The notes below the pieces were generated by a model, which was not told the DNA's origin, searched no databases, and worked only from the letters and a program-made list of their open reading frames with translations. The position numbers and the translations under genes were made by a program. A stretch of 64,000 nucleotides of DNA from Hyphomicrobium sp. (GTDB lineage Bacteria; Pseudomonadota; Alphaproteobacteria; Rhizobiales; Hyphomicrobiaceae), in the NCBI RefSeq assembly GCF_019744875.1, contig NZ_JAIETU010000004.1, positions 1-64,000 on the forward strand. Direction: 5' to 3'. Of the stretch, positions 2,721 to 21,542 are shown piece by piece; position 1 is the first letter of the stretch, and the number at the start of each line of letters is the position of its first letter.

Positions 2721-3486
2721 CTCGGTAATCCCGCGCAGCATCACGCCTACAAAGGCGGCATACTCGCTGTTTGCCATTCCAATGAGTGTTCGCCTCGTCG
2801 AACAGATGACCCCGCTTACAGTGCGTCAGGGCCTTCAATCGTTCGCCGTTCGCCTTTCCACCCCTTGAGAGACCGGATAAGTCCATTTTGTGCTCTGGCG
2901 ACAGAACGGCTGACGCAGGCCACCCCATGTCTATCCGCCTCGTGATTGTGTTGTGGTGCACACCGGTCAACCTGGACCACTCTGCCACAGTGTGCGTCAC
3001 GCCATCCGAGGTGAAAGACCGATTGCAGCGCCGGTTATTTTGCTGAGTACGACGGCTAGCCCAAATGCAGTTCGACGTTGAGTATGGCCCGTCGTTGTTA
3101 CGACGTTCAATGGTGTAGCCGTCAGGCGGGTCTCCCATGTCGGCATGAAAGGCGGAGAACGTTCGCCATTCCGGCGCCAGTGTGATCCCGCGTCCGCCGT
3201 AGTGACAAAAGAAACGGGACTTCGGGTTCTCGCATCGCTGAACAATGCCGCACCATATTGAGTAACAGCGGCTCCTGCTCTTCCCGTGCTTCGTCGTGGC
3301 TTCACGCAACCTGCCTGATCGAGCGCTTGATAGCTCGGAATGAAGGCAACCGCAGGAGCGGGTTGCGCCGCTGCGAAGATGGTCAGCCCTGACCTCCTTT
3401 TTTGATCCGCAACTGCACATGCAAACAGCGTATCGGCCTCGCATGCCGATGACAGTTAGCCGCGTGAACACATCACCTTTTTGCAT
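2689..3486 (-). CDS. HNH-type (homing-like) endonuclease, antisense to phage late genes
   Basis: 265 aa. The ATG at 3486 has GGAGG six bases upstream; an in-frame TTG at 3516 is less likely. Parts in order: an N-terminal Cys cluster (CMCSCGSKKEV then SCGC, about residues 20-48); a core with YGGRGI, ERRNNDGPYSTSNCIWA and RRTQQNNRR (about 85-150), the pattern of phage HNH nucleases; a helix-turn-helix-like stretch VAEWSRLTGVHHNTITRRI (about 165-185); and a C-terminal zinc motif HCKRGH...CRLC (about 220-250). It lies opposite in strand to the flanking structural genes and between them, as expected for a selfish homing endonuclease. Classical homing activity is an inference. Confidence 0.75.
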   Translation of the reverse strand: MQKGDVFTRLTVIGMRGRYAVCMCSCGSKKEVRADHLRSGATRSCGCLHSELSSARSGRLREATTKHGKSRSRCYSIWCGIVQRCENPKSRFFCHYGGRGITLAPEWRTFSAFHADMGDPPDGYTIERRNNDGPYSTSNCIWASRRTQQNNRRCNRSFTSDGVTHTVAEWSRLTGVHHNTITRRIDMGWPASAVLSPEHKMDLSGLSRGGKANGERLKALTHCKRGHLFDEANTHWNGKQRVCRLCRRDAARDYRATRRSIQMQN

Positions 3487-3515
3487 TGCGCGCCTCCATG
3501 TGGCCGTAGCATGCA

Positions 3516-4352
3516 ATGGAATTGGAGGACGGTCAATTGTCTTTTAATGGTTCCGGGACGTTTCAGCGCGTCCACTCTTGGACTGCAGACCGCTCCAACG
3601 GCATCAAGGTGCGCTCAGATCGAATGGACGCCGAAGACGACGGCTTCGCCGCGGGTCTCTCCAACTGCATTGCTCGCGACGGGCAGTCCACGATTACCGC
3701 CGACATTCCATTCAACAACAAGAAGATCACGGCGCTGGCCGACGCCACGGGAGATACGCACGCGCTCAACCGACAAACGGCGGATGGGCGCTATTCGCGC
3801 AACGCAAACGATCTCCCCAACGAGACGGCTTTCGCCACTGATGACGAGATCTCGTTCTGGGACGCGTCCGCGGGCGCCAACAAGGCGATGGCCTATTCGG
3901 CGCTGCGCGCACTGCTCGGTTTCCCGACAGGGACTAAGATGCTGTTTCAGCAGACAGCGGCGCCGACGGGCTGGACCAAAGACACCACCCACAACAACAA
4001 GGCGCTTCGCATCGTAAACGGCACGGCATCGACCGGTGGCACCACGGCATTCACGACCGTGTTCGGAGACCGCACGCTGACGCAGGCCAACCTTCCGAGC
4101 TACACGTTGCCGAACACGCTCGGGCACAACATCGCACTGTCCGGGGACACTACGTTAATCCGGCGCAGCGGTGGCAATACGATTGGTGGCCCTGGCAGCG
4201 GCGGCGGATTGTCCGACATCTTGCGCGCAACGGACACCACAACGCTCGGCATCACAGGTGGGATTACCGGATCTGTTACTTCCGGCGGCTCAGGCACAGC
4301 GCTTGATTTCGCCGTGCAGTATGTCGACGTCATCATCGCCACGAAGGACTAG
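3516..4352 (+). CDS. Phage tail fibre / tail collar-like protein
   Basis: 278 aa from the ATG at 3516. A TTG at 3537 is a serious alternative because GGAGG lies eight bases before it and the product would start at the family-like SFNGSGTF. The N-terminal part (FNGSGTF, RSDRMDAEDDGFAAGLSNCI, DGQSTITADIPFNNKKIT) is typical of short phage tail-fibre N-termini. The C-terminal half has the PTGTKMLFQQTAAPTGWTKD pattern of tail-collar/fibre proteins, followed by a Gly/Thr/Ser-rich tip. It probably forms the trimeric receptor-binding fibre. Gene order (structural, fibre, lysis) supports this. Confidence 0.8.
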   Translation: MELEDGQLSFNGSGTFQRVHSWTADRSNGIKVRSDRMDAEDDGFAAGLSNCIARDGQSTITADIPFNNKKITALADATGDTHALNRQTADGRYSRNANDLPNETAFATDDEISFWDASAGANKAMAYSALRALLGFPTGTKMLFQQTAAPTGWTKDTTHNNKALRIVNGTASTGGTTAFTTVFGDRTLTQANLPSYTLPNTLGHNIALSGDTTLIRRSGGNTIGGPGSGGGLSDILRATDTTTLGITGGITGSVTSGGSGTALDFAVQYVDVIIATKD

Positions 4353-4355
4353 CGC

Positions 4356-4664
4356 ATGCTCCCAGATGAAAAGGTGATGTGCCACCACACGGGGTTCGAG
4401 AAGTCGTGCTTCGACATGGTGACGCGGTGCAAGTGCAGGAAGTGGGTTCAGGTCCACGGAGCGAACCCACAGACTGGCGACATCGTGAGCAGGTGGGAGT
4501 GCGTAGACGCGCTGATGCCGATGCTGATGATTGAGAATTCGCAACAGCAGCGGCAGACCGGCGCCGCGGTGGAATCGTTCCGCAACGAGATGGTGAGGGC
4601 AAACGAGGTCGCCGGGCTCATCGACGCGCCCCGGCGCCAGGCTCTCGTCGAGGGTGCGCGGTGA
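4356..4664 (+). CDS. Small phage protein, Cys/His-containing, unknown function
   Basis: 102 aa starting three bases after the tail-fibre stop. The N-terminal half has a Cys/His set (MCHHTGF, SCFDMVTRCKCRKW) that could bind a metal; the C-terminal half is helical with several Gln/Arg/Glu residues. The stop overlaps the next start as GTGA, so the genes are co-translated. The position between tail fibre and endolysin is common for small accessory genes. No function is recognised. Confidence 0.65.
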   Translation: MLPDEKVMCHHTGFEKSCFDMVTRCKCRKWVQVHGANPQTGDIVSRWECVDALMPMLMIENSQQQRQTGAAVESFRNEMVRANEVAGLIDAPRRQALVEGAR

Positions 4665-5059
4665 AGGTCTCCATCCAGCACGACATGGCGGAAGACGAGT
4701 TCGCCAAGCGCTTTGGCGGGTTGGCGGCGGCCGGCTACGACGAGGCCCACGCGGCGCTACTTCGCGCTCAGGGCATCAAGCCGGTCAGCGTGGAGACGGT
4801 GTACGGCACGAGTGTGCCTCAAGTGCCGGCCGTCGTTGAAACGCAGGCTGTCGTCCCCTATTCGCCGCCGGCGGAGCCGACCGATCTTGCCCCACTGTAC
4901 GGCCTGCTGGTGCAAATGGCTGACATGCTGACAGAGACGCGCGAACGCCTCGAGGCGCGGATCGTCGATCAGGAAAAGGTCAACCAATTTTTGGTGACGA
5001 AACTCGAAGTGATCGAGCAGATCGACATCACCCTCTTGGACGAACGAAAGGCGGGCTGA
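4661..5059 (+). CDS. Small phage protein with C-terminal coiled coil, unknown function
   Basis: 132 aa from a GTG at 4661 that overlaps the preceding TGA by four bases. The N-terminal 50 residues look globular (KVSIQHDMAEDEFAKRFGGL), followed by a Pro/Val-rich linker and a C-terminal helix of about 55 residues with heptad-like Leu/Ile/Met spacing, suggesting a coiled coil. It belongs to the late-gene transcription unit. No known domain was recognised. Confidence 0.6.
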   Translation: MKVSIQHDMAEDEFAKRFGGLAAAGYDEAHAALLRAQGIKPVSVETVYGTSVPQVPAVVETQAVVPYSPPAEPTDLAPLYGLLVQMADMLTETRERLEARIVDQEKVNQFLVTKLEVIEQIDITLLDERKAG

Positions 5060-5105
5060 GCCATGATGTTGCCGGGCGCTGTCGGCGCGGGCTCATCATG
5101 TCGCT

Positions 5106-5297
5106 CTACTTCGGTGGAATGTCGCGCTGAACGTACTTCTGGCAGGTCCACCGCACGAGTTTCATGTCGTCGGGCATGAACGTCTTCACGGCGGCAGCGT
5201 AGCGTTCGCATTCTGGGACCGAACGGAATTCTTCAGTCCGAGTCCGCTCCTGACCGTCTAGGAGCACCGTCAAAATGAGCGTCGCGCCAAAATCCAT
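5106..5297 (-). CDS. Small hypothetical protein, antisense before the endolysin
   Basis: 63 aa. The ATG at 5297 is preceded on the minus strand by AAGGAG about ten bases upstream, and the product begins MDFGATLILTVLLDGQERTR with a hydrophobic start and ends CQKYVQRDIPPK. It faces left between the rightward small genes and the endolysin, and its start lies 41 bases before the endolysin ATG. The two Cys and short length resemble small exported or membrane-anchored accessory proteins. Function unknown; the good ribosome site is the main support. Confidence 0.55.
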   Translation of the reverse strand: MDFGATLILTVLLDGQERTRTEEFRSVPECERYAAAVKTFMPDDMKLVRWTCQKYVQRDIPPK

Positions 5298-5337
5298 ATC
5301 GCAATCACTCCTTGATGATTCAGGCGAGAGAAAGACC

Positions 5338-6030
5338 ATGATCCTGAACGAACGATCGCTCAAGAACCTCGAAGGTGTCCATGCCGATCTCGTGCGCGTT
5401 GTGCACCGGGCGGCGGAGATCTGCTCTGTGCCATTCGTCGTGACGGAGGGCCTTCGCAACCTCAAGCGCCAGAAGGAGCTCAAGGCGGCCGGCAAGAGCT
5501 GGACGCTCGACAGTAGGCATTTGACTGGCCATGCCGTCGACGTCGTGGACGCAAACGACTTCAAATACGACATCCCGGATCTGACCAAGATCGCCGCTGC
5601 GATGAAGCAGGCGTCACGAGAGCTCGATATCCCGATTGTCTGGGGTGGGGATTGGAAACAGCGGGACACGCCGCACTTCGAGCTCGACAGGAAGGTCTAC
5701 CCGGCGAGCGGCATCAGCCTGACGGCGAAGGCTACGGAAATCGCGTCCAAGGTCATCACCTCCAGGCCGGTTCTGACGGTGGCCACTGGTGGTACGGCCG
5801 CGAAGGTGGCCTCGGCACCGGCCTCCACACCAGTTCCAGACCCGGCTCCTGCCGTCGCACTGCCGAGCCCGCCCGATACCTCGTGGCTCACCGGCTGGAA
5901 GGGTACTGGAACCACCCTCGCCGACATCGGAAGCTGGGCCTGGGCCAACCCGCTCATCACGCTCGGCCTCGCTGCGTGGATCCTCGCAGCCATGTACCTC
6001 GTGCCCAAGATCACGAGGAAGGCGACATGA
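5338..6030 (+). CDS. Endolysin, M15 peptidase (VanY / L-Ala-D-Glu type) with C-terminal membrane segment
   Basis: 230 aa; ATG at 5338 with GAGAG upstream (an in-frame ATG at 5275 has no such site and overlaps the antisense gene). Residues 1-120 form an M15 domain with the zinc motif SxHxxGxAxD: S59, H61, G64, A66, D68, plus WGGDW (102-106) and the third ligand H113 in DTPHFEL. It should cut peptidoglycan cross-links for host lysis. A Pro/Ala linker (about 150-195) joins it to a single transmembrane helix (about 208-225) and a Lys/Arg tail, an unusual anchor for an endolysin. Its stop overlaps the next ATG (ATGA). Confidence 0.85.
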   Translation: MILNERSLKNLEGVHADLVRVVHRAAEICSVPFVVTEGLRNLKRQKELKAAGKSWTLDSRHLTGHAVDVVDANDFKYDIPDLTKIAAAMKQASRELDIPIVWGGDWKQRDTPHFELDRKVYPASGISLTAKATEIASKVITSRPVLTVATGGTAAKVASAPASTPVPDPAPAVALPSPPDTSWLTGWKGTGTTLADIGSWAWANPLITLGLAAWILAAMYLVPKITRKAT

Positions 6031-6269
6031 TCAATCTAGGCCTCGACAAGCTCATCCTCCCGGCGCTCATCGGCGGCGGGGTGCTCATCTTCCTCGGTAT
6101 CTTTGCGTATGACCAACGCCAGCGCGGCGCCGAGAAGGCAGTCGCAAAGATCGAAAGGAAAGACAATGCCGCGGCTCAACACATTCGCAAGGCTGACGCT
6201 CTGTCTCGCGCTGCCCAGCCTGGGCGGGTGCGCGGGCTGGTTCGAGACCCAAACTCCGTCTCTGAGTGA
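6027..6269 (+). CDS. Rz-like inner-membrane spanin
   Basis: 80 aa. Starts at an ATGA overlap with the endolysin. One N-terminal transmembrane helix (LILPALIGGGVLIFLGIFAY, residues 8-27) is followed by a charged periplasmic stretch. It is probably the inner-membrane half of a spanin pair, because a lipoprotein gene in another frame starts inside it at 6166, the classic nested Rz/Rz1 arrangement. The sequence itself has little family signal; the call rests on topology and gene order. Confidence 0.6.
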   Translation: MINLGLDKLILPALIGGGVLIFLGIFAYDQRQRGAEKAVAKIERKDNAAAQHIRKADALSRAAQPGRVRGLVRDPNSVSE

Positions 6270-6474
6270 CGGCAAGGCGGTGAGCGAGCTTCTGAAGCCG
6301 GTCCCGGTTTACGACAAGGCTCCGTGCTGGATGCAGAAGGAATGGAGCGCCGACAACACCCGCAAGGAAGCGGCCGGCGGGGGCAAGAAGGTGTTTGCAC
6401 CACCGTGCGTGTACGACAAAAAAGAAGCTCCGAAACCAGTGCCCGCGTCAGAACCCGACCAGAAAACCTCGTGA
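6166..6474 (+). CDS. Rz1-like outer-membrane lipoprotein (o-spanin)
   Basis: 102 aa from the ATG at 6166 (GGAAAG upstream); it overlaps the previous gene by 104 bases in another frame. The signal peptide MPRLNTFARLTLCLALPSL ends in a lipobox LGGC with Cys near residue 22. The mature part is rich in Pro, Lys and Glu and has two further Cys. Lipobox, nesting in an upstream membrane-protein gene and position after the endolysin fit the o-spanin that completes lysis by outer-membrane disruption. It is longer than the coliphage lambda Rz1. Confidence 0.65.
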   Translation: MPRLNTFARLTLCLALPSLGGCAGWFETQTPSLSDGKAVSELLKPVPVYDKAPCWMQKEWSADNTRKEAAGGGKKVFAPPCVYDKKEAPKPVPASEPDQKTS

Positions 6475-6514
6475 GGTAAACTCATGCTCGCGCGCACCCC
6501 AGGGGCGGATATCC

Positions 6515-6796
6515 ATGAACACACGACGCCCGAACCAAGACCCGACGCATCGGAACGATTGGCAGCAGTCGTGGATTTCCTTGCAAGGCCAGGCGCAATT
6601 CCTGCTCGGCAACCTGTCGGGGAGAGTGGACGGCCTAGAGCGGAGGGTGACGGTGCTGGAAGACAGAAAGCCCCGATGGTGGCACGGCCTTCCGTGGGTC
6701 CAACTGCTGGGCATGTTGGTGCTGACAGTGCTCGGTCTCACCGGAGCCATCAGCCCGTCAGAAACCAAAGAGTACGCGCAACATATTCTCCGGTGA
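6515..6796 (+). CDS. Small phage membrane protein, holin candidate
   Basis: 93 aa from the ATG at 6515, with AGGGG about nine bases upstream. The N-terminal half is polar and partly coiled (LSGRVDGLERRVTVLEDR), followed by RWWHG and a single transmembrane helix (WVQLLGMLVLTVLGLTGAI) and a short C-tail. One membrane helix next to an endolysin and spanin cassette fits a holin or a holin-associated protein, but no family motif is recognised. The stop overlaps the next tiny gene as TGATG. Confidence 0.5.
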   Translation: MNTRRPNQDPTHRNDWQQSWISLQGQAQFLLGNLSGRVDGLERRVTVLEDRKPRWWHGLPWVQLLGMLVLTVLGLTGAISPSETKEYAQHILR

Positions 6797-6864
6797 TGCG
6801 GGTGGGCTGGGCTCTCGTCACGCTGATTTGCGTGGTCGGGATTGTTCGTGTGATCGTGGCTTAA
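6796..6864 (+). CDS. Possible 22-residue transmembrane micropeptide
   Basis: The ATG at 6796 overlaps the stop of the holin-candidate gene (TGATG) and the frame ends at a TAA at 6862. The predicted peptide is almost entirely a transmembrane helix (WALVTLICVVGIVRVIV). Coupling and composition suggest a real lysis-region micropeptide, but a frame this short can arise by chance and there is no independent ribosome site. Confidence 0.3.
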   Translation: MRVGWALVTLICVVGIVRVIVA

Positions 6865-6869
6865 TCTGT

Positions 6870-6888
6870 TCTGTTCCCTTCCTGCGGG
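6870..6888. repeat. Copy 1 of a 19-bp exact repeat in the leftward phage cluster
   Basis: The 19 bases tctgttcccttcctgcggg recur exactly at 7865-7883. Read on the minus strand the core is CCCGCAGGAAGGGAACAGA, which contains an SD-like AGGAAGG, similar to the leader sequences before several leftward genes here. This copy lies just beyond the end of the last leftward gene and has no start codon behind it. Confidence 0.6.
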
Positions 6889-6889
6889 A

Positions 6890-7144
6890 TTAAGAGGGGG
6901 CTACCTTATTCGACGTGCTAAGGCGATGCAGATTCTCGACCAGGGCATTGCACTGCCGGACCGCTTGGTCGCGCTCTGCCCGTAAGGTTTCAATCTCTTC
7001 TTCTGCCCACGCTATAGCCGCTGCGTCTCTGTCAGAGCGAGCGTTTTTGCGGGCGCACGTCAGGGCGAAAATCCTGTCGTCGTCTTGCTCGTTGTAGGGC
7101 GAGATGTCCATTGCCGTCCCTCTTCCTGAGGGATTATCTTTCAT
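6890..7144 (-). CDS. Small phage protein, coiled-coil region, unknown function
   Basis: 84 aa from the ATG at 7144, which overlaps the upstream gene's stop as ATGA. An internal ATG at 7111 has a good site (AGAGGGA about five bases upstream) and gives 73 aa, so both starts are possible. The product contains a Glu/Arg/Ala-rich helix (IAWAEEEIETLRAERDQAVR) likely to form a coiled coil. Last gene of a five-gene leftward run. No domain recognised. Confidence 0.55.
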   Translation of the reverse strand: MKDNPSGRGTAMDISPYNEQDDDRIFALTCARKNARSDRDAAAIAWAEEEIETLRAERDQAVRQCNALVENLHRLSTSNKVAPS

Positions 7145-7626
7145 ACGTCGTCAACGGTCAGGAAGTTACGTCCTCGCTCTCGGTAGTCCCCAGTTCCTCC
7201 GCACCATGCGCAATCGATCTCTCCGCCCGAGGCGCGGTCGCCAAACGTTCCAGCGCCCTCGCAATGCGGGCAGAGTTTAACACCCAAATCCGAGACTGGC
7301 GCGCGGAGCGCCGCACGTATGGGGGCGCCACCCTTTTCAAAGTGCCACCGTATTTCGTCCAACGTGGGGCCCATCATCGACGGATCGAAGTTCGCATCCG
7401 CGTATCTAGCCAGCAATTCGCGAACGAAGGTGACATCCGCTTCGAGCGCCGCAATGCGTGATGCGGCCGCTCGTTCAAGCTCAGACGGCGTATTTTCCCA
7501 ATAGGTAACGTCCTGGCCGGCAGAGAACCAACTCACCCGATTGAGCGATAGGCGTTCCGTCGGCGTTGCTGCGTCCCACGCGGCCCGAAGTTCCTCCGCG
7601 CGTTGTTCTGAAATCTCAGTCGCCAT
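7141..7626 (-). CDS. Phage protein with C-terminal CxxCxGxG-type zinc motif
   Basis: 161 aa. The C-terminal part has two Cys knuckles, CPHCEGAGTFGD and CAWCGGTGDY (about residues 118-147), like the DnaJ-type zinc-ribbon repeat; the N-terminal part is helical with Trp/Arg/Glu residues. Such knuckles occur in many short phage early or accessory proteins. The stop overlaps the next gene's ATG. A specific role is not known. Confidence 0.6.
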   Translation of the reverse strand: MATEISEQRAEELRAAWDAATPTERLSLNRVSWFSAGQDVTYWENTPSELERAAASRIAALEADVTFVRELLARYADANFDPSMMGPTLDEIRWHFEKGGAPIRAALRAPVSDLGVKLCPHCEGAGTFGDRASGGEIDCAWCGGTGDYRERGRNFLTVDDV

Positions 7627-7632
7627 CTCTCC

Positions 7633-7842
7633 TCACCCTTTCCTTAGGCTGTCATCGGCTAGTTCCGCGACAAGCTTTGCGTGCTCGTCATCGCTGCACG
7701 AGTAGACCAAATCACAGTCGGATAGCTTGGCCTCGCCGGGCGGCCACCCGCACCATGACAAGCGGTCTTCCTCCGGCTTGACGCAGCGGACAACCCACTT
7801 CTCGCCGGTCGGCTTGTGCAGGACATGGTCGCCTGTTCGCAT
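7633..7842 (-). CDS. Conserved short phage protein, unknown function
   Basis: 69 aa; ATG at 7842 with AGGAG about nine bases upstream (minus strand). The sequence (GDHVLHKPTGEKWVVRCVKP, then WCGWPPGEAKLSDCDLV) looks like a small beta-barrel fold and resembles short proteins I know from other alphaproteobacterial phages. The stop lies six bases before the next gene, so it belongs to the leftward operon. Function not established. Confidence 0.6.
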   Translation of the reverse strand: MRTGDHVLHKPTGEKWVVRCVKPEEDRLSWCGWPPGEAKLSDCDLVYSCSDDEHAKLVAELADDSLRKG

Positions 7843-7864
7843 CTCGTCGTCTCCTATGTAGTCG

Positions 7865-7883
7865 TCTGTTCCCTTCCTGCGGG
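7865..7883. repeat. Copy 2 of the 19-bp exact repeat
   Basis: Identical to 6870-6888. Here it lies on the minus-strand side between the genes ending at 7894 and starting at 7842, about 20 bases before the AGGAG used by the latter. It looks like a duplicated translation-initiation leader. Confidence 0.6.
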
Positions 7884-7893
7884 GTTATGACGG

Positions 7894-8184
7894 TCAGAAA
7901 TCTAGTTGAAGAACTTCGGCAGTTGTCGTCGGTCCGACTTCGCGCGTCACCCACTCGATAGCTTCGCGCTGTTCGGCCTTGGTTAGCGTCCCCAGCAGCA
8001 ACTTGCGCGCCCGGTGTATGAGTGGCGATGCGGTGTGGTCTCGCCAGAGGAGGCCATAGGCCATTTGCGCTGCCGTTGGTTCGCGCGCTCCACAGATGTC
8101 GCACGTCTCGCCCTGGGGGAGGTGGCATTCGCCACAAGGCGGTTTTCCCTTTCGTGCGTCTTTCGGTATTTCGATCAGTGGCAT
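7894..8184 (-). CDS. Phage protein with two CxxC pairs, unknown function
   Basis: 96 aa; ATG at 8184 with GGGAAGG directly upstream on the minus strand. The N-terminal third carries CGECHLPQGETCDICGARE, two CxxC pairs that could bind zinc. The rest is helical (YGLLWRDHTASPLIHRARK and LTKAEQREAIEWVTREVG). Part of the leftward gene run. No family assigned. Confidence 0.55.
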   Translation of the reverse strand: MPLIEIPKDARKGKPPCGECHLPQGETCDICGAREPTAAQMAYGLLWRDHTASPLIHRARKLLLGTLTKAEQREAIEWVTREVGPTTTAEVLQLDF

Positions 8185-8227
8185 CCTTCCCTCTTTTCCT
8201 TGTCCTGTGTGTTGAACCGCTACTGGG

Positions 8228-8476
8228 CTATCTCAATCCCATTTTGGGTCTGCTGAAGTCGCGCCGCGGCATGTCCGGCCACATGTGCTCAACCGGATTG
8301 GGCCTGGTCCAACCGTTATCATCGATAATGGCTTGCGCGTCCTGAGCGCGGCAAAAGCGGATAGCCTTGTTGTGATCCTTCGCCCACCCGCACACGCCGT
8401 CTTCATCGTCTAGACGGCACCAGTACATCGGACGGCCGCCATCCTGCATCTCAATCAGCCACGCTCGTTCGTCCAT
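8228..8476 (-). CDS. Conserved short phage protein, unknown function
   Basis: 82 aa; ATG at 8476 with AGGAAAGGA upstream on the minus strand. The pattern AWLIEMQDGGRPMYWCRL with [18 protein letters not shown] matches a short protein type common in phages of this bacterial group. It is the first gene of the leftward run, so a promoter should lie in 8477-8678. Function unknown. Confidence 0.6.
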   Translation of the reverse strand: MDERAWLIEMQDGGRPMYWCRLDDEDGVCGWAKDHNKAIRFCRAQDAQAIIDDNGWTRPNPVEHMWPDMPRRDFSRPKMGLR

Positions 8477-8678
8477 GTTTGTCGTCCTTTCCTGTTGAAC
8501 CGGGGTTACGCACCTACCGCACGCACGACGGGGATCGGCACGTCACAGACTGTCGGTGATTCTTGTTGGGACTCTCGGCAACCGGCTCACGTTTCGTTCC
8601 GTCCGGTTCTGTCCATGTTCCACACCCCTTGCCACCCCTGCAAAACCCCTGTAAGCACCGGCCTCCCATGACGATTTC
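8477..8678. other. Intergenic region between phage-like genes and tRNA-Lys
   Basis: About 200 bases without a coding frame. It should hold the promoter of the leftward phage genes and the right boundary of the prophage. I see no duplicated tRNA fragment, integrase gene or clear direct repeat inside it, so the attachment site cannot be placed from this window. Confidence 0.4.
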
Positions 8679-8753
8679 GGGCCGGTAGCTCAGCGGTAGA
8701 GCACGTGACTTTTAATCATGGGGTCGAGGGTTCGACTCCCTCCCGGCTCACCA
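8679..8753 (+). tRNA. tRNA-Lys(UUU)
   Basis: A full cloverleaf can be drawn: acceptor GGGCCGG with CCGGCTC, D arm GCTC/GAGC, anticodon stem CGTGA/TCATG with loop CTTTTAA (anticodon TTT), T arm GAGGG/CCCTC with TTCGACT, discriminator A and an encoded CCA. It sits at the right edge of the phage-like region. Confidence 0.95.
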
Positions 8754-8936
8754 AACTTTGCCAACATTGTCAGTGTGTTGCTTTTCAAGGTCTCCTTGAT
8801 TGCGCACGCTTTCGATGGGTTGGCGGCGCTTTCCGCTAAATGGAATGTATTTCAAAGCGTTATGTGCGCGCGGAAGCCTGGGATGCCGGCTTCCGCTCTT
8901 CAGGCTGTGCTTTCCGCACGGTGCCTCTCGCCGGTG

Positions 8937-11900
8937 CTAGGCGGCCAGCGGCTCGGCGAGCTGGACGTGGGGCGTGTCCAGGTCGACGAAGCCGGGTCTG
9001 AAAACGCGCTCGCACGGAATTCCATGCCAGGACGTGCGCGAGGGCAAAATCTCGCCCTTGAGAAGGACCGAGAGCGGACCCAGCACCGATTCCCGCTGCA
9101 TCTCTGTGCCATAGAGCACCACGGCCATGTTGCCGACCGTGCAGCCGTCCCCGATCTTGAGGCGATCGGCCTTGAAAATGCGATCCTCGAACAGATGCGT
9201 CTGAACGGTGGCGCCGAGATTGAGGCACACGTTGTCGCCGATCTCGACGAGATCGAACTCGGAAAACAGCGTGGTGTCGATGAAGCACCACTTGCCGATC
9301 TTGCAGCCCATCATGCGCAGGCATGGCGCGATCAGCGGCGTGCCCATGAGCGGCTGCATGGCGGCCGCTGCAATGGTCTCGTACACCCCGTTGACGAGCT
9401 CGTTGTGCCAAACGTATCGCGACCACAGCGGCTTCACGACCGGACCGTGCGTGCCGGTCAGGAGCGCTTTGATCACGGCGGTGACGAGAATAGCGGCAAA
9501 GGCGAGTGAAACCGCGACAGCCGGCATGAGGGCCAGCACCTGCCACAGCGGCATCGTGCGCGAACCGGCAACGACGAACGCGACGAACGCCACGATGCAG
9601 GCGACTGCGATCACGCTCGGCAGCAGGACACGCATTGCGTCCGTCAGCGCCCGCTCCAACCGCGCAAGAAGGCTCGGCTTGAAGGTCTCGGTCTCCGCGA
9701 AGCAGCTATCATTCTGCGTTTTGGGCAGGGCAAAGCTCGGCGAGCCGAGCCAGCGCGTGCCGTTCGGCACGACGGGGGTGTCTGCCGGCGGTGTCGAGGA
9801 GACGCCGATCAGCACGTCGTCGCCGATGGTGTGGCCGCCCGTGACCACGGCGCTGTTGCCGATGAACGTGCGCGAGCCGATCTTGACCGCGCCGATCTCG
9901 AGCCTGTCGTTGTGAATGCGTTCGCCGCCGACGAGGCAGGAGTCGGCCAGGAAGCTCGAGTCGCCGATTTCGAGCACGTCCGGGCAGACATGCGACACCG
10001 TCGAGATCTCGACGCCCTTGCCGATCTTCGCACCGAACGCGCGCAGCAGGCTGGGCAGGTAGATCGTCGCGTACACCGGCATCAGCAGCGTCTTGGTGTT
10101 CTCGAGCAGGTACGCCGAGAACCAGTGCCGAAGGTACTTGAAGCTGTAGATCGACATCGTGCCGGCGCTGAGCGGACCGATCAGGCGCTTGAGCATGATC
10201 GCGCCGCGGATGTACACGAATATTCCGAGCGGGATCGACGCGAACGCCGCCGCGACGCCCCACCACGGGCCGCCCAGGTACAAGGCGCCGAGAACCAGCG
10301 CGATGGAGGGCAGCGACGTCATGAGCAGGAAGTAGCCCATGGCGTAGATGAGGGCGAGGTGCAGGAGGCCGTAGTAGACACGAACGAGCTTGTGGCCGGT
10401 GCGGCGCACCGTCGAGGCGTTCTTCAGGTCGCGCGTGCGTTCAGGCACGGGAACGGTTGCCGGCAGCGCGGGAATGCCGCGCCGGGCGTCGCCCTCGGGC
10501 ATCTCGATGCCGTCGGGAAGGAGGGACATGTCGTCGAGGCGCGCGCCGTCGCCCATGCGCGATCTAAGGCCGAGCGCGCACTGCATGCCGACGAAGCAAT
10601 CGCTGCCGATGGTGACCGGTGCGATCACGAGATAGCCGTCTTCGACGCGATAGCCGAGGATCTGGGTCTCGACGCCGACGCTCGAGTTGTCGCCGATGGT
10701 CACCATGTCCCACGCGCTGGATAGTTGCGTGGAAATCGTGACGTCGCGGCCGATCCTTGCGCCCATCGCGCGCCAGTAGAGGCTCATGAGCGGCGTGCCC
10801 TTGAACATCTCGGCCCAGGCGAGAGCCTGGAAGCGGTTGGCGATCCACCAGCGCAGGTAATAGAAGCCCCACACCGGATAGCGGCCTTCCTTGTACCGGC
10901 CGATCACGATCCATTTCACAGCGATGCTGAGCAGCAGCAGGAACGGCCAGGCGAGAAAGCCAACGACCGTCGAGAGCTGTGCGGCGACCGTCCAGTGCAT
11001 CTTGCCGTCGACAACGGCCGTGATGACGAGTGCGACGTACGTGAGGGGCAGCGCGAGAATGGCATAGTAGCTCGCGGCGAAGACCGCCTGCAGCGTGGCC
11101 GTGGTCCAGCGCACCAGCGGATGCACGTCCGCGTTCGCGCTTTCGGCCGCGCGGGTCTCGCGGGCTTCGTCTTCGGCGAAGAGGGCTGCGTCCGCCCCGT
11201 GGTCCGAGGATTCGGATAGGTGAGCGGCGAGGCCGCGGACGGTCCGGTGTTCGTAGATGTCGCGCACCGAAAGGGATATCGATCCGGTGGTTTCGCGCGT
11301 GCGCGCCACGGTCTGGGCCGCGAGCAGCGAATGGCCGCCGAGGTCGAAGAAGAAGTCGGCTTCGACGGAGATCTCGGGGATGCCGAATGCGCGCTGCCAG
11401 GCGTCTGCAACGCGCCGCTCGAGGTCGTTCGCCGGGGCGACGGCCGCGCCGGTGTCGATCAGAAGCTTCTGCGGCGCGGGCAGCGCGTTGCGGTCGATCT
11501 TGCCGCTCGACATCATCGGCAGCGCGTCCGTCACGTCGAGATACTGCGGCAGCATGTAGGCCGGCATCCGCTCGCGCATCAGCGCGGCGAGCTCGTTGCG
11601 ATCGAAGGTTTCGCTGCCGTTCTCGGTGACGACGTAGGCGGCGAGCTCCTTGAGGTCGCGCGTGTTGACGACGGTAACGGCCGCGGCCTTGATGGCGGGA
11701 TGCGACAGCAGGACCGCTTCGATCTCGCTCAGCTCGATGCGGAAACCGCGGATCTTGATCTGGTCGTCAAGGCGTCCGAGAAAATAGAGCTCGCCCGTGT
11801 CGGAGAGTTGGACATGGTCGAACGTGCGATAGAGGGTTTCGCTCGCGTCGGTCGGATTGGGAATGAAGCGCTGGGCCGTCAGCTCGGGCAGGTTCATGTA

Positions 11901-12998
11901 CCCGCGCGCGACGCCCGCGCCGCCGATGTACAGCTCGCCCGTCTCTCCCGCCGCGACGGGATTGAGGTTCTCGTCGAGCACATGGGTGGTGTATCCGGGG
12001 AGGGCAAAACCGATGGAGACCGGCTGGCCGGGTGTGCACTCGCTCCAGGTCGCAACGACGGTGGCTTCCGTCGGGCCATAGGTGTTGAGCATGCGCCGTT
12101 CGGGAGTGGCCCAGCGGGCTACCAGCTCGGCCGAGCAGGCTTCACCGCCGAGGACAAGCGTCCGCACCGTGGGGAGATCGCGATCGATCATCGCCAGCAT
12201 CGTGGGCACGGTGGAGAAGTACGTTATTTCCTGCTCGTCGATGAAGTGGGCCGCGTCGGACGGCGAACGCAGAATCTCCTCGGTGGGGACGACGAGCGTA
12301 CCGCCGAGCGAAAACGCGGCCCAGATCTCTTCGACCGAGGCGTCGAACGCCGTCGAGAAGCCCTGATAGACGCGGTCGTCCGGCGTGATCTTGTAGACGG
12401 TCTTGAGGGTGCGCACGAACGCGGCGGCGTTGCGATGCTCGATCATCACGCCCTTGGGCCGTCCGGTGGAGCCAGACGTGTAGATCACGTAGCAGAGGTC
12501 GGTGGGATCGATCGCGCGCGAAAGCAACGGCTGCGTCACGGGCGAGCGCGAGATCGCCGGGTGGTCGCGGTCGAGGTTGACGATGGCGGTGTCGATGGCG
12601 CCGTCGACTGCGCTGAACAGCGCATGTTCCGTCACGAAAGCCTTGGCGGCCGAGTCCTCGAGGATCGCGCGGATGCGCTCCAGCGGAAACCTCGGATCGA
12701 TCGGCACGTAGGCCGCGCCTGCTTTGAGGATGCCGAGCATCGCCGCATAGAGGCGGTGGGACTTGTTGAGGTAGAGCGCCACGAGGTCGCCCGGGCGCAC
12801 GCCGCGCGAGATCAGGCCGTGCGCAATCTGGTTCGCGTAGGCATCGAGCTCGGCATACGTGATGATGTCGTCGGAGAACTCGACCGCCGGCTTGTCCGGA
12901 TGCAGCGCGACCTGTGCTTCAAAATAGAGATGAAGGAGGCGCAGAGCTGGCGTCTCGTAGGATCGCCGCGTTTGCGTTCCCTGGCCCGTATTGAGCAT
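8937..12998 (-). CDS. Membrane-bound single-module NRPS, Pls (poly-lysine synthetase)-like
   Basis: 1353 aa; start at the ATG at 12998 with GAGGCG upstream (an in-frame ATG at 13031 is less likely). Order: adenylation domain (about 15-505) with YTSGSTGRPKGV (173-184), NTYGPTE, LGRLDDQIKIRGFRIE and the catalytic Lys500 in SSGKIDRNALP; a carrier domain with LGGHSL, Ser557; then no classical condensation domain but several membrane helices alternating with three left-handed beta-helix regions. That is the layout of epsilon-poly-lysine synthetase. By-eye alignment to GrsA gives the pocket code D-A-E-S-V-G-T-V-V-K, near the lysine code I recall for bacitracin synthetase. A polymer of lysine or a similar basic amino acid made at the inner membrane is likely but unproven. 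Confidence 0.9.
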   Translation of the reverse strand: MLNTGQGTQTRRSYETPALRLLHLYFEAQVALHPDKPAVEFSDDIITYAELDAYANQIAHGLISRGVRPGDLVALYLNKSHRLYAAMLGILKAGAAYVPIDPRFPLERIRAILEDSAAKAFVTEHALFSAVDGAIDTAIVNLDRDHPAISRSPVTQPLLSRAIDPTDLCYVIYTSGSTGRPKGVMIEHRNAAAFVRTLKTVYKITPDDRVYQGFSTAFDASVEEIWAAFSLGGTLVVPTEEILRSPSDAAHFIDEQEITYFSTVPTMLAMIDRDLPTVRTLVLGGEACSAELVARWATPERRMLNTYGPTEATVVATWSECTPGQPVSIGFALPGYTTHVLDENLNPVAAGETGELYIGGAGVARGYMNLPELTAQRFIPNPTDASETLYRTFDHVQLSDTGELYFLGRLDDQIKIRGFRIELSEIEAVLLSHPAIKAAAVTVVNTRDLKELAAYVVTENGSETFDRNELAALMRERMPAYMLPQYLDVTDALPMMSSGKIDRNALPAPQKLLIDTGAAVAPANDLERRVADAWQRAFGIPEISVEADFFFDLGGHSLLAAQTVARTRETTGSISLSVRDIYEHRTVRGLAAHLSESSDHGADAALFAEDEARETRAAESANADVHPLVRWTTATLQAVFAASYYAILALPLTYVALVITAVVDGKMHWTVAAQLSTVVGFLAWPFLLLLSIAVKWIVIGRYKEGRYPVWGFYYLRWWIANRFQALAWAEMFKGTPLMSLYWRAMGARIGRDVTISTQLSSAWDMVTIGDNSSVGVETQILGYRVEDGYLVIAPVTIGSDCFVGMQCALGLRSRMGDGARLDDMSLLPDGIEMPEGDARRGIPALPATVPVPERTRDLKNASTVRRTGHKLVRVYYGLLHLALIYAMGYFLLMTSLPSIALVLGALYLGGPWWGVAAAFASIPLGIFVYIRGAIMLKRLIGPLSAGTMSIYSFKYLRHWFSAYLLENTKTLLMPVYATIYLPSLLRAFGAKIGKGVEISTVSHVCPDVLEIGDSSFLADSCLVGGERIHNDRLEIGAVKIGSRTFIGNSAVVTGGHTIGDDVLIGVSSTPPADTPVVPNGTRWLGSPSFALPKTQNDSCFAETETFKPSLLARLERALTDAMRVLLPSVIAVACIVAFVAFVVAGSRTMPLWQVLALMPAVAVSLAFAAILVTAVIKALLTGTHGPVVKPLWSRYVWHNELVNGVYETIAAAAMQPLMGTPLIAPCLRMMGCKIGKWCFIDTTLFSEFDLVEIGDNVCLNLGATVQTHLFEDRIFKADRLKIGDGCTVGNMAVVLYGTEMQRESVLGPLSVLLKGEILPSRTSWHGIPCERVFRPGFVDLDTPHVQLAEPLAA

Positions 12999-13596: not shown

Positions 13597-14346
13597 GTGC
13601 TGCGTTTCGTGCTTCCTATAGGATCAATTCTCGTGCTGGGCGCCACGGGTGTCTCGGCTGTGGCGCATTACCTCGAGGGCGGATCTGCCGACGTGAACAA
13701 GGGGTATGACATCACTCGGAGCAAGCTCGTTCCGATCTATCCTGAGGGCTATCGCTGCTCCCCATTGACCTCTCTCTATGCGAGCTGGCGCGACGTCGAC
13801 GGTTCGCGCCGGGATGAGGCGCACTCCGGTGTCGATGGTGGAGCGCTCGGGGACGACATCCTCGCGCCCGCATCAGGCGCCGTGAAAGCCGTGTGGGAAG
13901 CCAACTGGGGATGGGGCAAGGAAGGCGCGCTGCTCATCTCGCATACGGCCGCCGAGCTCAATCTCGATGACGGCGCGTCTCATTACCTCTCGGTCTATGA
14001 CCATCTGAGGTATCAGGACATCAAGCACCTCAAGGCCGGTCAGCGGATTTCGCGCGGGGAGCGGCTCGCGACCGTCTACCGGCCGGGCGGTCACGCCTTC
14101 TACCTGCCTGAGGTGCACTGGGAGGTGTGGGAGGTTCAATCCGAGACGCTGACGTGGGTCACGAACCGGCACGGCGGCCAGGAATGGCGCAATCCCGAGG
14201 CCCGGCTCATCGATCCCTTGTACATGCTTGGCATTCACGAGCCGCCGCAAGACGGCAAATCCGTCCGCATCGTCCCGTTCGACCCAAAGGCGGATTACAC
14301 GAATTTTCGTGGGTTTACCTACATCTTCCCCTGCCGGAAGGCCTGA
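13597..14346 (+). CDS. Exported M23-family (LytM-like) protein with altered active site
   Basis: 249 aa from a GTG at 13597 with weak GGGG upstream. An N-terminal hydrophobic segment ([20 protein letters not shown]) is a signal or anchor. The M23 pattern is visible: [19 protein letters not shown] (HxxxD, about residues 76-80) and a C-terminal HWEVWE. Active enzymes usually have HxH there, but the first position is Glu (EVH), so the general-base His seems missing. It could act as a binding or activating LytM protein rather than a hydrolase. It stands alone behind a long hairpin-rich leader. Confidence 0.75.
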
Positions 14347-14425
14347 GTCTGAGTCCAGGCGGCGGCGCGGTGGCATCCGGCTTGCAGACGGTGCTTTCAG
14401 TTTCCCTTTCCGACAGGAGCTGAAA

Positions 14426-14962
14426 ATGCGTCGCTCGAAGTCCACCTCTGTCACCAAGTTCGCGCGTGGCCTCGCCATCGCCGGCCTCGCGGCCCTCGCC
14501 GTCAACTCCGGCGTGGCCCTTGCTGAAACTCCGGCCGCGGGCACGGGCTCTGAAACGGGCACGGTTTGGTGGTCCGAAATCCTGAGTTCCAATCCCGCCC
14601 GAACCCGCGATTTCTATGCCGGTGTCGCTGGCTGGACCGCGAAGACCGTGGCGGCCGTCGATACAACGCGCGCGCCGAACCCGGGCGAAGCCGAGTACAC
14701 GGTCTTCATGCGCGACGGCGTGGAAGTCGCCGGTGCATCGAAGCTGGAAGCCGGCGATATGGATGACAGCCGCCCCGGCTGGATCACCTACATCCAGGTG
14801 GCGAGCGTCGATGACGCCGTCGTCGAGGCGCTGAAGAATGGCGGCCGCGTGCTGAAGGCGCCCTTCGACGATGCCAACAGCGGCCGCATGGCGATTGTCG
14901 CCGATCCCGATGGAATTCCGGTCGGTCTCGTGACGCCGAAGGCGGCTACTCCGGTGAACTGA
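14426..14962 (+). CDS. Exported VOC (glyoxalase-fold) family protein
   Basis: 178 aa; ATG at 14426 with AGGAG eight bases upstream. A Sec signal peptide (to about residue 32, ALA-ET) precedes a single VOC domain: [20 protein letters not shown], then [20 protein letters not shown] and [19 protein letters not shown] proteins of this type are usually cytoplasmic, so the clear leader is notable. The metal ligands of glyoxalase I are not obvious, and no substrate can be named. It follows the M23-like gene by 79 bases. Confidence 0.8.
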
Positions 14963-15216: not shown

Positions 15217-16632
15217 ATGGGAAAGCGCATTTTCACGTCTGTAATGGGCGGCTTCGCACTTGCGCTCATGGCAACGCCGTCACTCGCAGATGGCATGGTG
15301 TCGCTCAAGGACACGATTGAAGAGCCCGCCGCGCCGACGTGGTCCGGAATGTATTTCGGCGGCAGCATCGGCTACGGCTGGAACGATTCCGACAACGTCT
15401 ACAACGACACTGACGGCGTACACTCGGTCGTCGGCGAAGACGCCGATGGCGGTCTCGTGTCGCTCGTCTGGGGCTACGACTGTCAGTGGGACCGCATCGT
15501 CGTCGGCGTGTTCGGAGACATCGACTGGTCGGACATTAGCCGTGGCCGCGACCAGGACGGCATGACGATCGACCGCTCCTACAACATTGGCGGCCGCATC
15601 GGTTATCTCGTGAGGCCGACGACCCTTGCCTTCGTGACGGCGGGCTACTCGCGCGCTCACTTCGATAACGACGGCTGGTGGGACATCAACGACGGCGGCG
15701 TGATCTATCCCGGCAGGGGCGACGCAAACTTCGACGGCTACTTCATCGGTGGCGGTCTCGAAACGATGCTCGGCAACGGCTTCTTCCTGCGCGGCGAAGT
15801 TCGCTACGCGAAGTATGATGCCGAGACCACGAACGCGAACAGCGATGGCGTCACGAGCTGGGTCGACAAGGAAGACCCTGAGATCGTTACCGCCAAGCTC
15901 GGCCTCGTCTACAAGTTCGACCGTGGCAGCGGACCGCTCGGTGGCGGATCGTCTGACGGCAACATCAAGGTCATCAGCTATGGCGGCGTCGATGTCGCCA
16001 AGGACATCTGGACCCTTTACTCGGGCAACCTGGTCGCTCTGAACGGTGACTTCACGCGCAGCGGCATGGTCGCTCGTACGTTCGGCTGGTATTCGGAATA
16101 CGAGTACGGCGACAGCACGGGCTCGGTTGACGCCGAAGACCGCGCACTCGACGTCATGCTCGGCTACATGCACTACATGGGCCCGATGGTGGCCATCGGT
16201 TATGTCGGTATGGAAGTTCGCGACATCGATCTTTCGCCGGATGACACGGGCAACAAGGTGCGCGGCACTGAGACCGGCTTCAAGCTCGCCTTCGAGCTCG
16301 AGACGGGCGATGAGCAGCCGTACTACTTCGCGCTCGACACGAGCTACTCGACGGCGTTCGACACCTTCTACGGCAACGCACGCGTCGGCTGGAACCTCAA
16401 CGGGACCAAGTTCGGTCCTGAGGGTGAGATCTGGAACGAGGAAGGCGACTCGACCTATCGCCTCGGCGCCTTCGCGGTTCTGCCCTTCAACCTGCGTCCC
16501 ACGCTCCCGGCTGAAGTCTCGGTTAGCGGCGGCTACCAGTGGGTCGAGGACAACGATCGCGGCATCACCTTCGGCGGCGTTCGCGGTGGCGAGGGCGCCT
16601 ACTTCAACTCCAATCTGAAGATCAATTTCTGA
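15217..16632 (+). CDS. Outer-membrane beta-barrel protein
   Basis: 471 aa. Signal peptide MGKRIFTSVMGGFALALMAT ending near SLA-DG (residue 25). Residues about 45-235 read as an Omp25/Opa-type barrel with GMYFGGSIGYGWNDSDN, alternating strands such as IVVGVFGDIDWSDISRG, GRIGYLVRPTTLAFVTAGYS and FLRGEVRYAKYDAE. Residues about 250-471 give a second strand-rich half (LDVMLGYMHYMGPMVAIGYV, FNSNLKINF). The protein ends in Phe, the usual insertion signal. About twice the size of single Omp25-type barrels. A strong terminator follows. Probably a porin or surface protein; cargo unknown. Confidence 0.8.
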   Translation: MGKRIFTSVMGGFALALMATPSLADGMVSLKDTIEEPAAPTWSGMYFGGSIGYGWNDSDNVYNDTDGVHSVVGEDADGGLVSLVWGYDCQWDRIVVGVFGDIDWSDISRGRDQDGMTIDRSYNIGGRIGYLVRPTTLAFVTAGYSRAHFDNDGWWDINDGGVIYPGRGDANFDGYFIGGGLETMLGNGFFLRGEVRYAKYDAETTNANSDGVTSWVDKEDPEIVTAKLGLVYKFDRGSGPLGGGSSDGNIKVISYGGVDVAKDIWTLYSGNLVALNGDFTRSGMVARTFGWYSEYEYGDSTGSVDAEDRALDVMLGYMHYMGPMVAIGYVGMEVRDIDLSPDDTGNKVRGTETGFKLAFELETGDEQPYYFALDTSYSTAFDTFYGNARVGWNLNGTKFGPEGEIWNEEGDSTYRLGAFAVLPFNLRPTLPAEVSVSGGYQWVEDNDRGITFGGVRGGEGAYFNSNLKINF

Positions 16633-17036: not shown

Positions 17037-17909
17037 GTGCCGGTGACCGCCAAGAATTGGATCGTCGAGACAGAGTGGCTCGCCGAGCATTTGGATGCGC
17101 CGGACCTGATCGTGTTCGACGGCTCTTGGCATCTGCCGAACTCGGGGCGCGATGCGAAAGCCGAATACCTCGCAGAGCACATTCCGGGAGCGCTGTTCTT
17201 CGACATCGACGATCTCGTGGACGAGAAGTCATCGCTGCCGCACATGCTGCCGCCGACGCCGAAGTTCGCCTCGCGCATGAAGAAGATCGGCGTGGGCGAC
17301 GGCATGCGCATCGTGGTCTACGATACCTACGGGCTGTTTTCCGCCGCGCGCGTGTGGTGGACGTTCCGCGCCATGGGGCATCAGGACGTGGCGGTGCTGA
17401 ACGGCGGCCTCAAGAAGTGGAAGGCCGAGGGCCGGCCGCTTGAGGATATGGCTCCGGTTTCGCGGACCGCGCGTCATTTCACGCCGCTGCAGAACACGTC
17501 GCTGATCCGGGATATTGACGACATGAAGGGTTATGTCGCCGCCGGCAACATGCAGATCGTCGACGCGCGCCCCAAGGCGCGTTTCGAGGGCACGGAGCCT
17601 GAGCCGCGTCCGGGCCTGCGTTCGGGGCACATCCCCGGCGCCGCGAACGTTCCGTCGCCGACCATTCTCAACGCGGATGGCACGCTCAAGTCGAAGGCCG
17701 AGCTTGAGAAGATTTTTGCCGATGTCGGCATCAATCCGCTGAAGCCCGTGGTGACGACCTGTGGATCGGGTGTCACCGCTTCGATGCTGTCGCTGGCGTT
17801 GGCCGTGATCGGGCAGACCAACGCCGCCGTGTATGACGGATCGTGGGCCGAGTGGGGCCAGGAAGGGCTCGATACGCCGGTCGAAACGGGCCCCGCGAAG
17901 GCGCGCTGA
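17037..17909 (+). CDS. sseA: 3-mercaptopyruvate sulfurtransferase (two-rhodanese protein)
   Basis: 290 aa from a GTG at 17037, placed five bases after AAGGAGG. Two rhodanese domains: the first (about 5-150) has IPGALFFDIDDL and VVYDTYGLFSAARVWWTFRA; the second (about 165-280) has VDARPKARFEG, HIPGAANVPSP and the active loop CGSGVTA with the catalytic Cys. It moves sulfur from mercaptopyruvate to thiol acceptors or cyanide. CGSGVTA is the mercaptopyruvate-type loop. The gene is flanked by terminators and so is monocistronic. Confidence 0.9.
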   Translation: MPVTAKNWIVETEWLAEHLDAPDLIVFDGSWHLPNSGRDAKAEYLAEHIPGALFFDIDDLVDEKSSLPHMLPPTPKFASRMKKIGVGDGMRIVVYDTYGLFSAARVWWTFRAMGHQDVAVLNGGLKKWKAEGRPLEDMAPVSRTARHFTPLQNTSLIRDIDDMKGYVAAGNMQIVDARPKARFEGTEPEPRPGLRSGHIPGAANVPSPTILNADGTLKSKAELEKIFADVGINPLKPVVTTCGSGVTASMLSLALAVIGQTNAAVYDGSWAEWGQEGLDTPVETGPAKAR

Positions 17910-21246: not shown

Positions 21247-21542
21247 GATCCAACTCTCTCGTTGCTGCTTTTTTGAGCGCCGTCCCTGTGTTCCCCGTAC
21301 CGCAGAATGGCGGATGTTGCCAGCATCGACCGTGCACTGTCTTGCGAAACGCTTGGCGGGCGGAGCCCGTTTTGCCGTGCGCATGCTGACGACCGGCCTC
21401 CTCACGTCCGCGCACGGAGTGCTGCCGCTGGCGCGTGGGGACGAAGCGGAGGCCGGGCTGGGATTCTGCTGGTGCCACGTATAAAGAAGGGGTTCCAGAT
21501 TTGCGTTTCATTCCCGTCCGCTCAGAATTCGAGAGATTAGCG

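Follow-up and report, generated by a model that had tools for sequence, protein, structure and literature searches.

Positions 8937-12998 on the minus strand of contig NZ_JAIETU010000004.1 of Hyphomicrobium sp., within the 64,000 nucleotides that we analysed (the window), encode a 1353-residue member of the Pls/PosA family of non-ribosomal peptide synthetases, whose products are cationic homo-polyamino acids. With a probability of about 0.7 we consider it an alphaproteobacterial stand-alone synthetase of the type that makes the antimicrobial polymer epsilon-polylysine. Taken by itself, the enzyme is a further member of a known family and is not new in kind, because the family has already been reported across bacteria, Rhizobia and Methylobacterium included. 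What is new here is a clade of Hyphomicrobiales synthetases that is co-inherited with an M23-type metallopeptidase-like protein and an outer-membrane protein (OMP) of the OMP/BcsS barrel type, often also with a VOC protein and a phosphopantetheinyl transferase (PPTase), and it is because of this co-inherited envelope set that we count the system as a new form.

The reading frame of the synthetase is intact, with an ATG at 12998 and a stop codon that ends at 8937. Pfam matches to AMP-binding (residues 26-367, 310 bits) and AMP-binding_C (residues 425-500) delimit an adenylation domain (residues 26-500; 11499-12923, minus strand), which is followed by one PP-binding carrier domain (residues 529-594; 11217-11414, minus strand), whose Ser557 in the motif GGHS is invariant in an alignment of 15 sequences, and by hexapeptide repeats. 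The seven Pfam families that match the protein at E<=0.001 include no condensation and no thioesterase domain. The remainder (residues 612-1353; 8940-11165, minus strand) is assigned to a membrane polymerisation domain, since residues 636-1328 score 561 bits with the NCBIfam model TIGR02353 ('Pls/PosA family non-ribosomal peptide synthetase', cut-off 423.1), in a match that runs from position 5 to position 694 of the 695 in the profile. A close Streptomyces homologue of the epsilon-polylysine (epsilon-PL) synthetase Pls likewise exceeds this cut-off, and the window gene is the only one in its own genome to do so. An AlphaFold model of the last 742 residues, built on a 48-sequence alignment (mean pLDDT 92.1, pTM 0.91), predicts a unit that occurs three times, each copy comprising a pair of long helices, short helices and a left-handed beta-helix; the six long helices, which would be the membrane helices of the family, are paired at model residues 16-88, 252-329 and 499-569, with a beta-helix after each pair. 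This agrees with the predicted architecture of helix pairs and beta-helices given for PosA in PMC10522769. A fold search with the model adds the predicted fold class and nothing further, since hexapeptide acyltransferases make up most of the 50 matches listed, at TM-scores (by query length) of 0.08-0.16. The domain plan that the first-pass annotation had proposed from the letters of the window, with one adenylation and one carrier domain, membrane helices, three left-handed beta-helices and no usual condensation or thioesterase domain, is thus borne out by Pfam, TIGR02353 and the structural model alike.

Chance can be excluded as the source of these matches, because the protein is 51-82% identical to 12 relatives along nearly its whole length. 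A reading of the gene as a relic, whether decayed or silent, is extremely improbable. Its clade is found in only four of the eight genomes of the genus that were searched (its own included), which would fit a relic, but its frame is intact, its motifs are conserved, and the identity to the copy in genome G003 is 82% over nearly the full length (G, C and L denote genomes, contigs and loci of our set).

The evidence for lysine comes from the binding pocket. Our multiple alignment comprised the window protein and 121 open reading frames (ORFs) drawn from 123 loci, with L068 (best match shorter than 600 residues) and L071 (no match at 1e-60) left out. The ten code positions fall on residues 219, 220, 223, 262, 282, 284, 306, 314, 315 and 500 and read D-A-E-S-V-G-T-V-V-K, exactly the code that had previously been read by eye. 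Pairwise alignment of a 126-residue query to the solved adenylation domains of the Streptomyces epsilon-PL synthetase (PDB 7WEW) and of PosA, the delta-poly-L-ornithine synthetase of Acinetobacter baumannii (PDB 8G95, of the series 8G95-8G98), placed the first nine positions identically. At these nine positions 7WEW reads D-A-E-S-I-G-T-V-V and differs from the window protein in a single Ile for Val; a Streptomyces gene annotated as 'epsilon-poly-L-lysine synthase Pls' reads D-A-E-S-I-G-T-V-V-K and shares nine of the ten positions. Characterised Pls is therefore a better comparator than bacitracin synthetase, to which the pocket had at first been likened: the bacitracin code differs at three positions, and reading the pocket by that analogy was given up in favour of the alignments to 7WEW and 8G95. 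Asp219 and Glu223 align with Asp217 and Glu221 of PosA, such that the anchors expected for a diamino acid are in place. The Ile-to-Val site corresponds to Asn280 of PosA, which is reported to make no substrate contact in that enzyme, and the second code position is Ala in Pls, Met in PosA and Phe in the PDAP/PDAB enzymes (both from PMC10522769). Because the pocket is one substitution away from that of Pls, at a site of no contact in PosA, and carries Ala at the second position, lysine is the best substrate prediction. The earlier suggestion of a lysine-like substrate thus holds for the pocket, while a lysine product is to be read as this prediction and not as a result.

That the enzyme activates and polymerises a diamino acid other than lysine, be it ornithine, beta-lysine or 2,4-diaminobutyrate, is unlikely. 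Pocket codes are, however, imperfect predictors: the PosA code is nearest to that of a lysine domain, yet the enzyme favours ornithine more than 160-fold (PMC10522769). PosA shares the domain plan, in a Gram-negative organism, as well as the Asp and Glu anchors. However, its pocket is D-M-E-H-N-G-T-V-S-K, the first nine positions of the solved domain agreeing with the code printed in that paper. The second position of the window pocket is Ala and neither Met, Gly nor Phe, and the one position at which it departs from the annotated Streptomyces Pls is the site without substrate contact in PosA, both of which argue for lysine.

The phylogeny bears on the same question. We calculated a tree of 114 rows, from which exact duplicates, ORFs shorter than 1150 residues after trimming and the rows of L055 and L114 had been removed, and a second tree of 59 chosen rows that included two Streptomyces Pls. 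In both, the window gene lies within a 13-row Hyphomicrobiales clade (SH-aLRT 100), in which the variable pocket position is Val in ten rows and Ile in three. The sister group is a 10-row clade (SH-aLRT 99) with the pocket D-G-E-S-[VI]-S-[VA]-V-N-K, and the joint 23-row clade again has an SH-aLRT of 100 in both trees. D-G-E-S-I-S-V-V-N-K is the pocket of an epsilon-poly-beta-lysine synthetase (PMC10522769). The sister clade is linked to this type by its pocket, no characterised member being among the rows of our trees. A KamA-family (lysine-aminomutase-family) gene is present at seven of the ten sister loci. The copy at L040 reaches 234.5 bits with the NCBI KamA-family radical SAM model (cut-off 199.2) and scores best on lysine 2,3-aminomutase, yet stays below the cut-off of the latter model. 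The nearest relatives in the tree thus favour a substrate other than lysine to some degree, as does one KamA/EpmB-like gene elsewhere in the genome of the window that is 40% identical to the L040 copy. On the other hand, the window gene has neither the beta-lysine pocket nor an adjacent lysine 2,3-aminomutase gene, and no KamA-family gene was found beside any of the 50 aligned rows with a D-A-E-S pocket (duplicate loci included) in the flanks examined.

With respect to Streptomyces Pls itself, the two Pls rows fall outside the 23-row clade in the 59-row tree, where their own placement is weakly supported, and the window protein is only 33% identical to Pls. Judged by its pocket the window gene would be called Pls-like, while orthology with Streptomyces Pls is unsupported because of this low identity and separate grouping.

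The sister clade also offers an observation in its own right. Three genomes of the window's family carry loci (L037, L040 and L045) in which a beta-lysine-pocket synthetase is accompanied by a KamA-family gene, a C45-family hydrolase, a BcsS barrel and a VOC protein; by eye, they share a further hydrolase-like protein as well. Among the ten beta-lysine-pocket loci, five have a C45-family hydrolase.

We infer that the window synthetase forms a polymer. That it instead makes a single lysine amide or a very short conjugate on an envelope amine, with the linked envelope proteins as acceptors or handlers, is very unlikely. The beta-helices of the membrane domain do resemble those of acyltransferases, the linked genes include one for an M23-type protein and one for a protein predicted to lie in the outer membrane, and products of the family can be short in vitro (7-12 units for PosA; PMC10522769). 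Against this, characterised relatives of the same plan make homopolymers, and the membrane domain fits the family model end to end.

Upstream of the synthetase and divergent from it, the plus strand carries three successive genes, partners that the first-pass annotation had not noticed. The first (13597-14346) encodes the M23-type metallopeptidase-like protein, with the motifs HxxxD and PEVH conserved in the 10 copies aligned, the second (14423-14962) a VOC/glyoxalase-fold protein whose N-terminus resembles a signal peptide by eye, and the third (15217-16632) an outer-membrane protein that joins an OMP_b-brl half to a BcsS (PF17036) half and is predicted to contain two stretches of beta-strands. 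The matches listed by a fold search with the barrel were generic outer-membrane barrels only, and this search, too, indicates no more than the fold class. Among the 13 clade members, examined in stretches of 13-26 kb, the M23 gene accompanies the synthetase 11 times, the barrel 11, the VOC gene nine and a PPTase gene eight times. In relatives the barrel is sometimes present as one half only (OMP in L043 and L050, BcsS in L077); L043 and L050 encode an additional protein of the Gcw_chp kind, which we took for an outer-membrane protein.

We surveyed 149 genomes, the window's own and 148 relatives, and the M23 protein, VOC protein and barrel are co-inherited with the synthetase clade. A match to the M23 protein at E<=1e-10 occurs in ten genomes (the window's own included), which are exactly the ten that carry the window's synthetase clade. 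Above the cut-off, Pls-family matches are present in 42 of the 149 genomes, and none of the other 139 has an M23 match at E<=1e-10, including 32 with other Pls-family genes, these being about 45% or less identical to the window gene. Full-length barrel fusions of at least 45% identity are confined to seven genomes, all carriers of the clade, whereas some barrel match is found in 73, weaker or one-half matches being widespread. The twelve best VOC matches (own included) all lie beside Pls-family genes, among them both copies in G032 and the beta-lysine-pocket loci of G009, G027 and G046; weaker matches are scattered and bring the total to 42 genomes. As a control we used the gene just beyond the barrel (17067-17906), which is present in 141 of the 149 genomes and whose best match, in the other nine genomes of the clade, either lies on a different contig from the synthetase gene or is separated from it by more than 30 kb.

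An accidental neighbourhood of the M23, VOC and barrel genes, preserved by general synteny and without their forming a functional set, is improbable. The carriers are related Hyphomicrobiales, and linked genes can move together. However, gene order and orientation vary between the loci, and relatives show no linkage of the gene that lies next beyond the set. The synthetase of G117 is located on contig C7, but its M23, barrel and PPTase genes lie together on C3, which shows that this set is kept together apart from the synthetase. Furthermore, the VOC and BcsS barrel genes are found beside beta-lysine-pocket synthetases in three genomes. A within-genus coincidence figure of 3e-6 ignores shared descent and linkage, and we therefore do not use it as a probability.

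Several points weigh against our interpretation of the window gene and its neighbours as an epsilon-polylysine-type system. Given the relatedness of the carriers and the linkage of the genes, the co-inheritance comprises few independent events. The substrate is predicted from a pocket code, with the PosA case (PMC10522769) as a caution, and identity to Streptomyces Pls, which groups elsewhere, is low. Two of the 13 loci, L049 and L069, have no M23 and barrel genes nearby, although L049 is the second copy in G032, whose other copy has both, and L069 is the locus of G117. The PPTase gene is missing beside the window gene, as beside all four Hyphomicrobium copies; two PPTase-domain genes lie elsewhere in the window's genome. 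In G003, whose assembly is fragmented, two frames share the M23 gene between them, and the model of the barrel is of moderate quality (pLDDT 67.1). Finally, the M23-type protein has Glu in place of the first His of HxH, which is usual for this fold, so that its activity is uncertain.

If the gene is indeed an epsilon-polylysine-type synthetase, the adenylation domain would activate L-lysine as the adenylate, and Ser557 of the carrier domain, presumably primed by a PPTase encoded elsewhere in the genome, would by analogy with the family be loaded with lysine as a thioester. Chain growth would be hosted by the membrane domain with its predicted pseudo-threefold array of helix pairs and beta-helices, where the side-chain amine of free lysine or of the growing chain could attack the thioester to give a short isopeptide-linked chain. 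The M23-type protein, the barrel and the VOC protein might keep the polycation in check or trim it, and might also move it through the outer membrane. The partner set may thus serve a producer with two membranes as a cassette for export and self-protection, in which the barrel is a natural candidate for the outer-membrane crossing.

In this context, the comparison with Streptomyces is instructive. In the Streptomyces record examined, an M1 peptidase gene directly follows pls; the M1-type enzyme PldII of Streptomyces breaks the polymer down, and a protective role in the producer has been postulated for it (PMC8117764 and PMC9223678). The window has the M23-type, VOC and barrel genes instead, and the Streptomyces M1 peptidase finds only a partial match of 31% elsewhere in the window's genome. 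The amide-hydrolase-type neighbour thus differs between the three synthetase groups, being M1 in Streptomyces, C45 in the beta-lysine-pocket clade and M23 in the window clade, which makes the M23-type protein the candidate here. A complete diderm epsilon-polylysine system in Hyphomicrobiales, with a lysine-specific synthetase, an OMP/BcsS barrel for export, an extracytoplasmic M23-type hydrolase as the counterpart of PldII, and a barrel type shared by the lysine and beta-lysine versions, is conceivable, but as a whole we put it forward only tentatively and consider it doubtful. If true, BcsS would export a polymer in a setting other than cellulose synthesis.

It is from cellulose synthesis that BcsS takes its name. 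A role of the barrel in that process was considered and is not supported here, as no cellulose synthase in the window's genome exceeds the TIGR03030 cut-off (best 58.6 bits against 699.1).

As to what has been described before, PMC10522769 reports the Pls/PosA family from a wide range of phyla. Rhizobia and Methylobacterium are among the carriers, their pocket being D-L-E-D-I-G-T-V-[TVI]-K, and the paper states that many bacterial genera have pockets matching epsilon-PL, delta-PO or PDAP synthetases. The D-L-E-D-I-G-T-V-[TVI]-K type is also present among the relatives in our pocket alignment. Clusters for non-alpha poly-amino acids such as epsilon-polylysine are reported from almost all Methylobacterium genomes studied (PMC8561711). 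No polylysine-type enzyme of Hyphomicrobium was evident in the literature searched, most subscription papers and all supplements being outside its reach. The initial view that such a product is undescribed for this group therefore holds narrowly, for Hyphomicrobium within that literature, but not for the wider group, from which the family was known. Among the papers listed by these searches, including those on BcsS, no proposal of an outer-membrane partner or route for such a polycation was evident; the 'Pls' of PMC12282271 proved to be an unrelated plasmin-sensitive protein.

Most of the characterised producers in the literature consulted are actinomycetes, and for PosA no partner genes are described in the accessible text of PMC10522769. 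The Hyphomicrobiales clade thus matters for how a two-membraned bacterium makes, survives and releases a membrane-damaging polycation, and it provides a small group of co-inherited genes whose individual roles are testable by deletion. Moreover, the lysine-pocket and beta-lysine-pocket clades, with an aminomutase-family gene absent in the one and frequent in the other, provide a natural experiment on substrate choice.

Further along the plus strand of the window, a membrane-fusion protein (21435-22694) and an RND pump (22766-25951) are candidate members of the set. Strong matches to this pair near a synthetase are limited to the window, L041 and L044 (L075 repeats the L044 locus). L052, L106, L116 and L134 have weaker matches of a generic kind, and the case for membership of the pair stays weak. 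On the other side, phage-like genes (58-7626), among them genes for a virion structural protein and an endolysin, end near a tRNA-Lys gene (8679-8753) just downstream of the synthetase, and are possibly a prophage beside its tRNA site.

Our searches also returned more distant relatives. A second, divergent Pls-like family of about 27% identity occurs in Hyphomicrobium and related organisms (L035, L036, L070, L071 and L176). Its gene in L035 (G007:C3:1666000-1684000, positions 3103-10689) scores 166.9 bits with TIGR02353, which is below the cut-off, and the pocket in L035, L036, L070 and L176 is DGSFVATTDK, without the Glu anchor. The L035 gene is preceded by SbnA and SbnB genes (both above the NCBI cut-offs) and a weak match of the arginine-deiminase type, hinting at 2,3-diaminopropionate chemistry and perhaps at a new polymer. 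Split versions, which distribute the adenylation part and the Pls-type membrane domain over two proteins, were found in L055 (G098, 1562-7458) and L169 (G088). These could represent a two-protein relative of the Pls family, the L169 pocket, DIWQSTANHK, not being of the diamino-acid type.

PPTase genes recur in close association with Pls-family genes. The match lies within the same ORF in L039, L108, L120 and L125, for example, and in the next ORF after the synthetase in, among others, L090, L095, L103, L105, L116, L118 and L126; these arrangements span several phyla and include archaeal contigs. On a plasmid of Sphingomonas parapaucimobilis (L073, 5992-11107), a PPTase gene and a gene for a GNAT acetyltransferase come after a Pls/PosA gene whose pocket, DMEHNGTVTK, is of the ornithine type, and this acetyltransferase might modify or detoxify the polymer.

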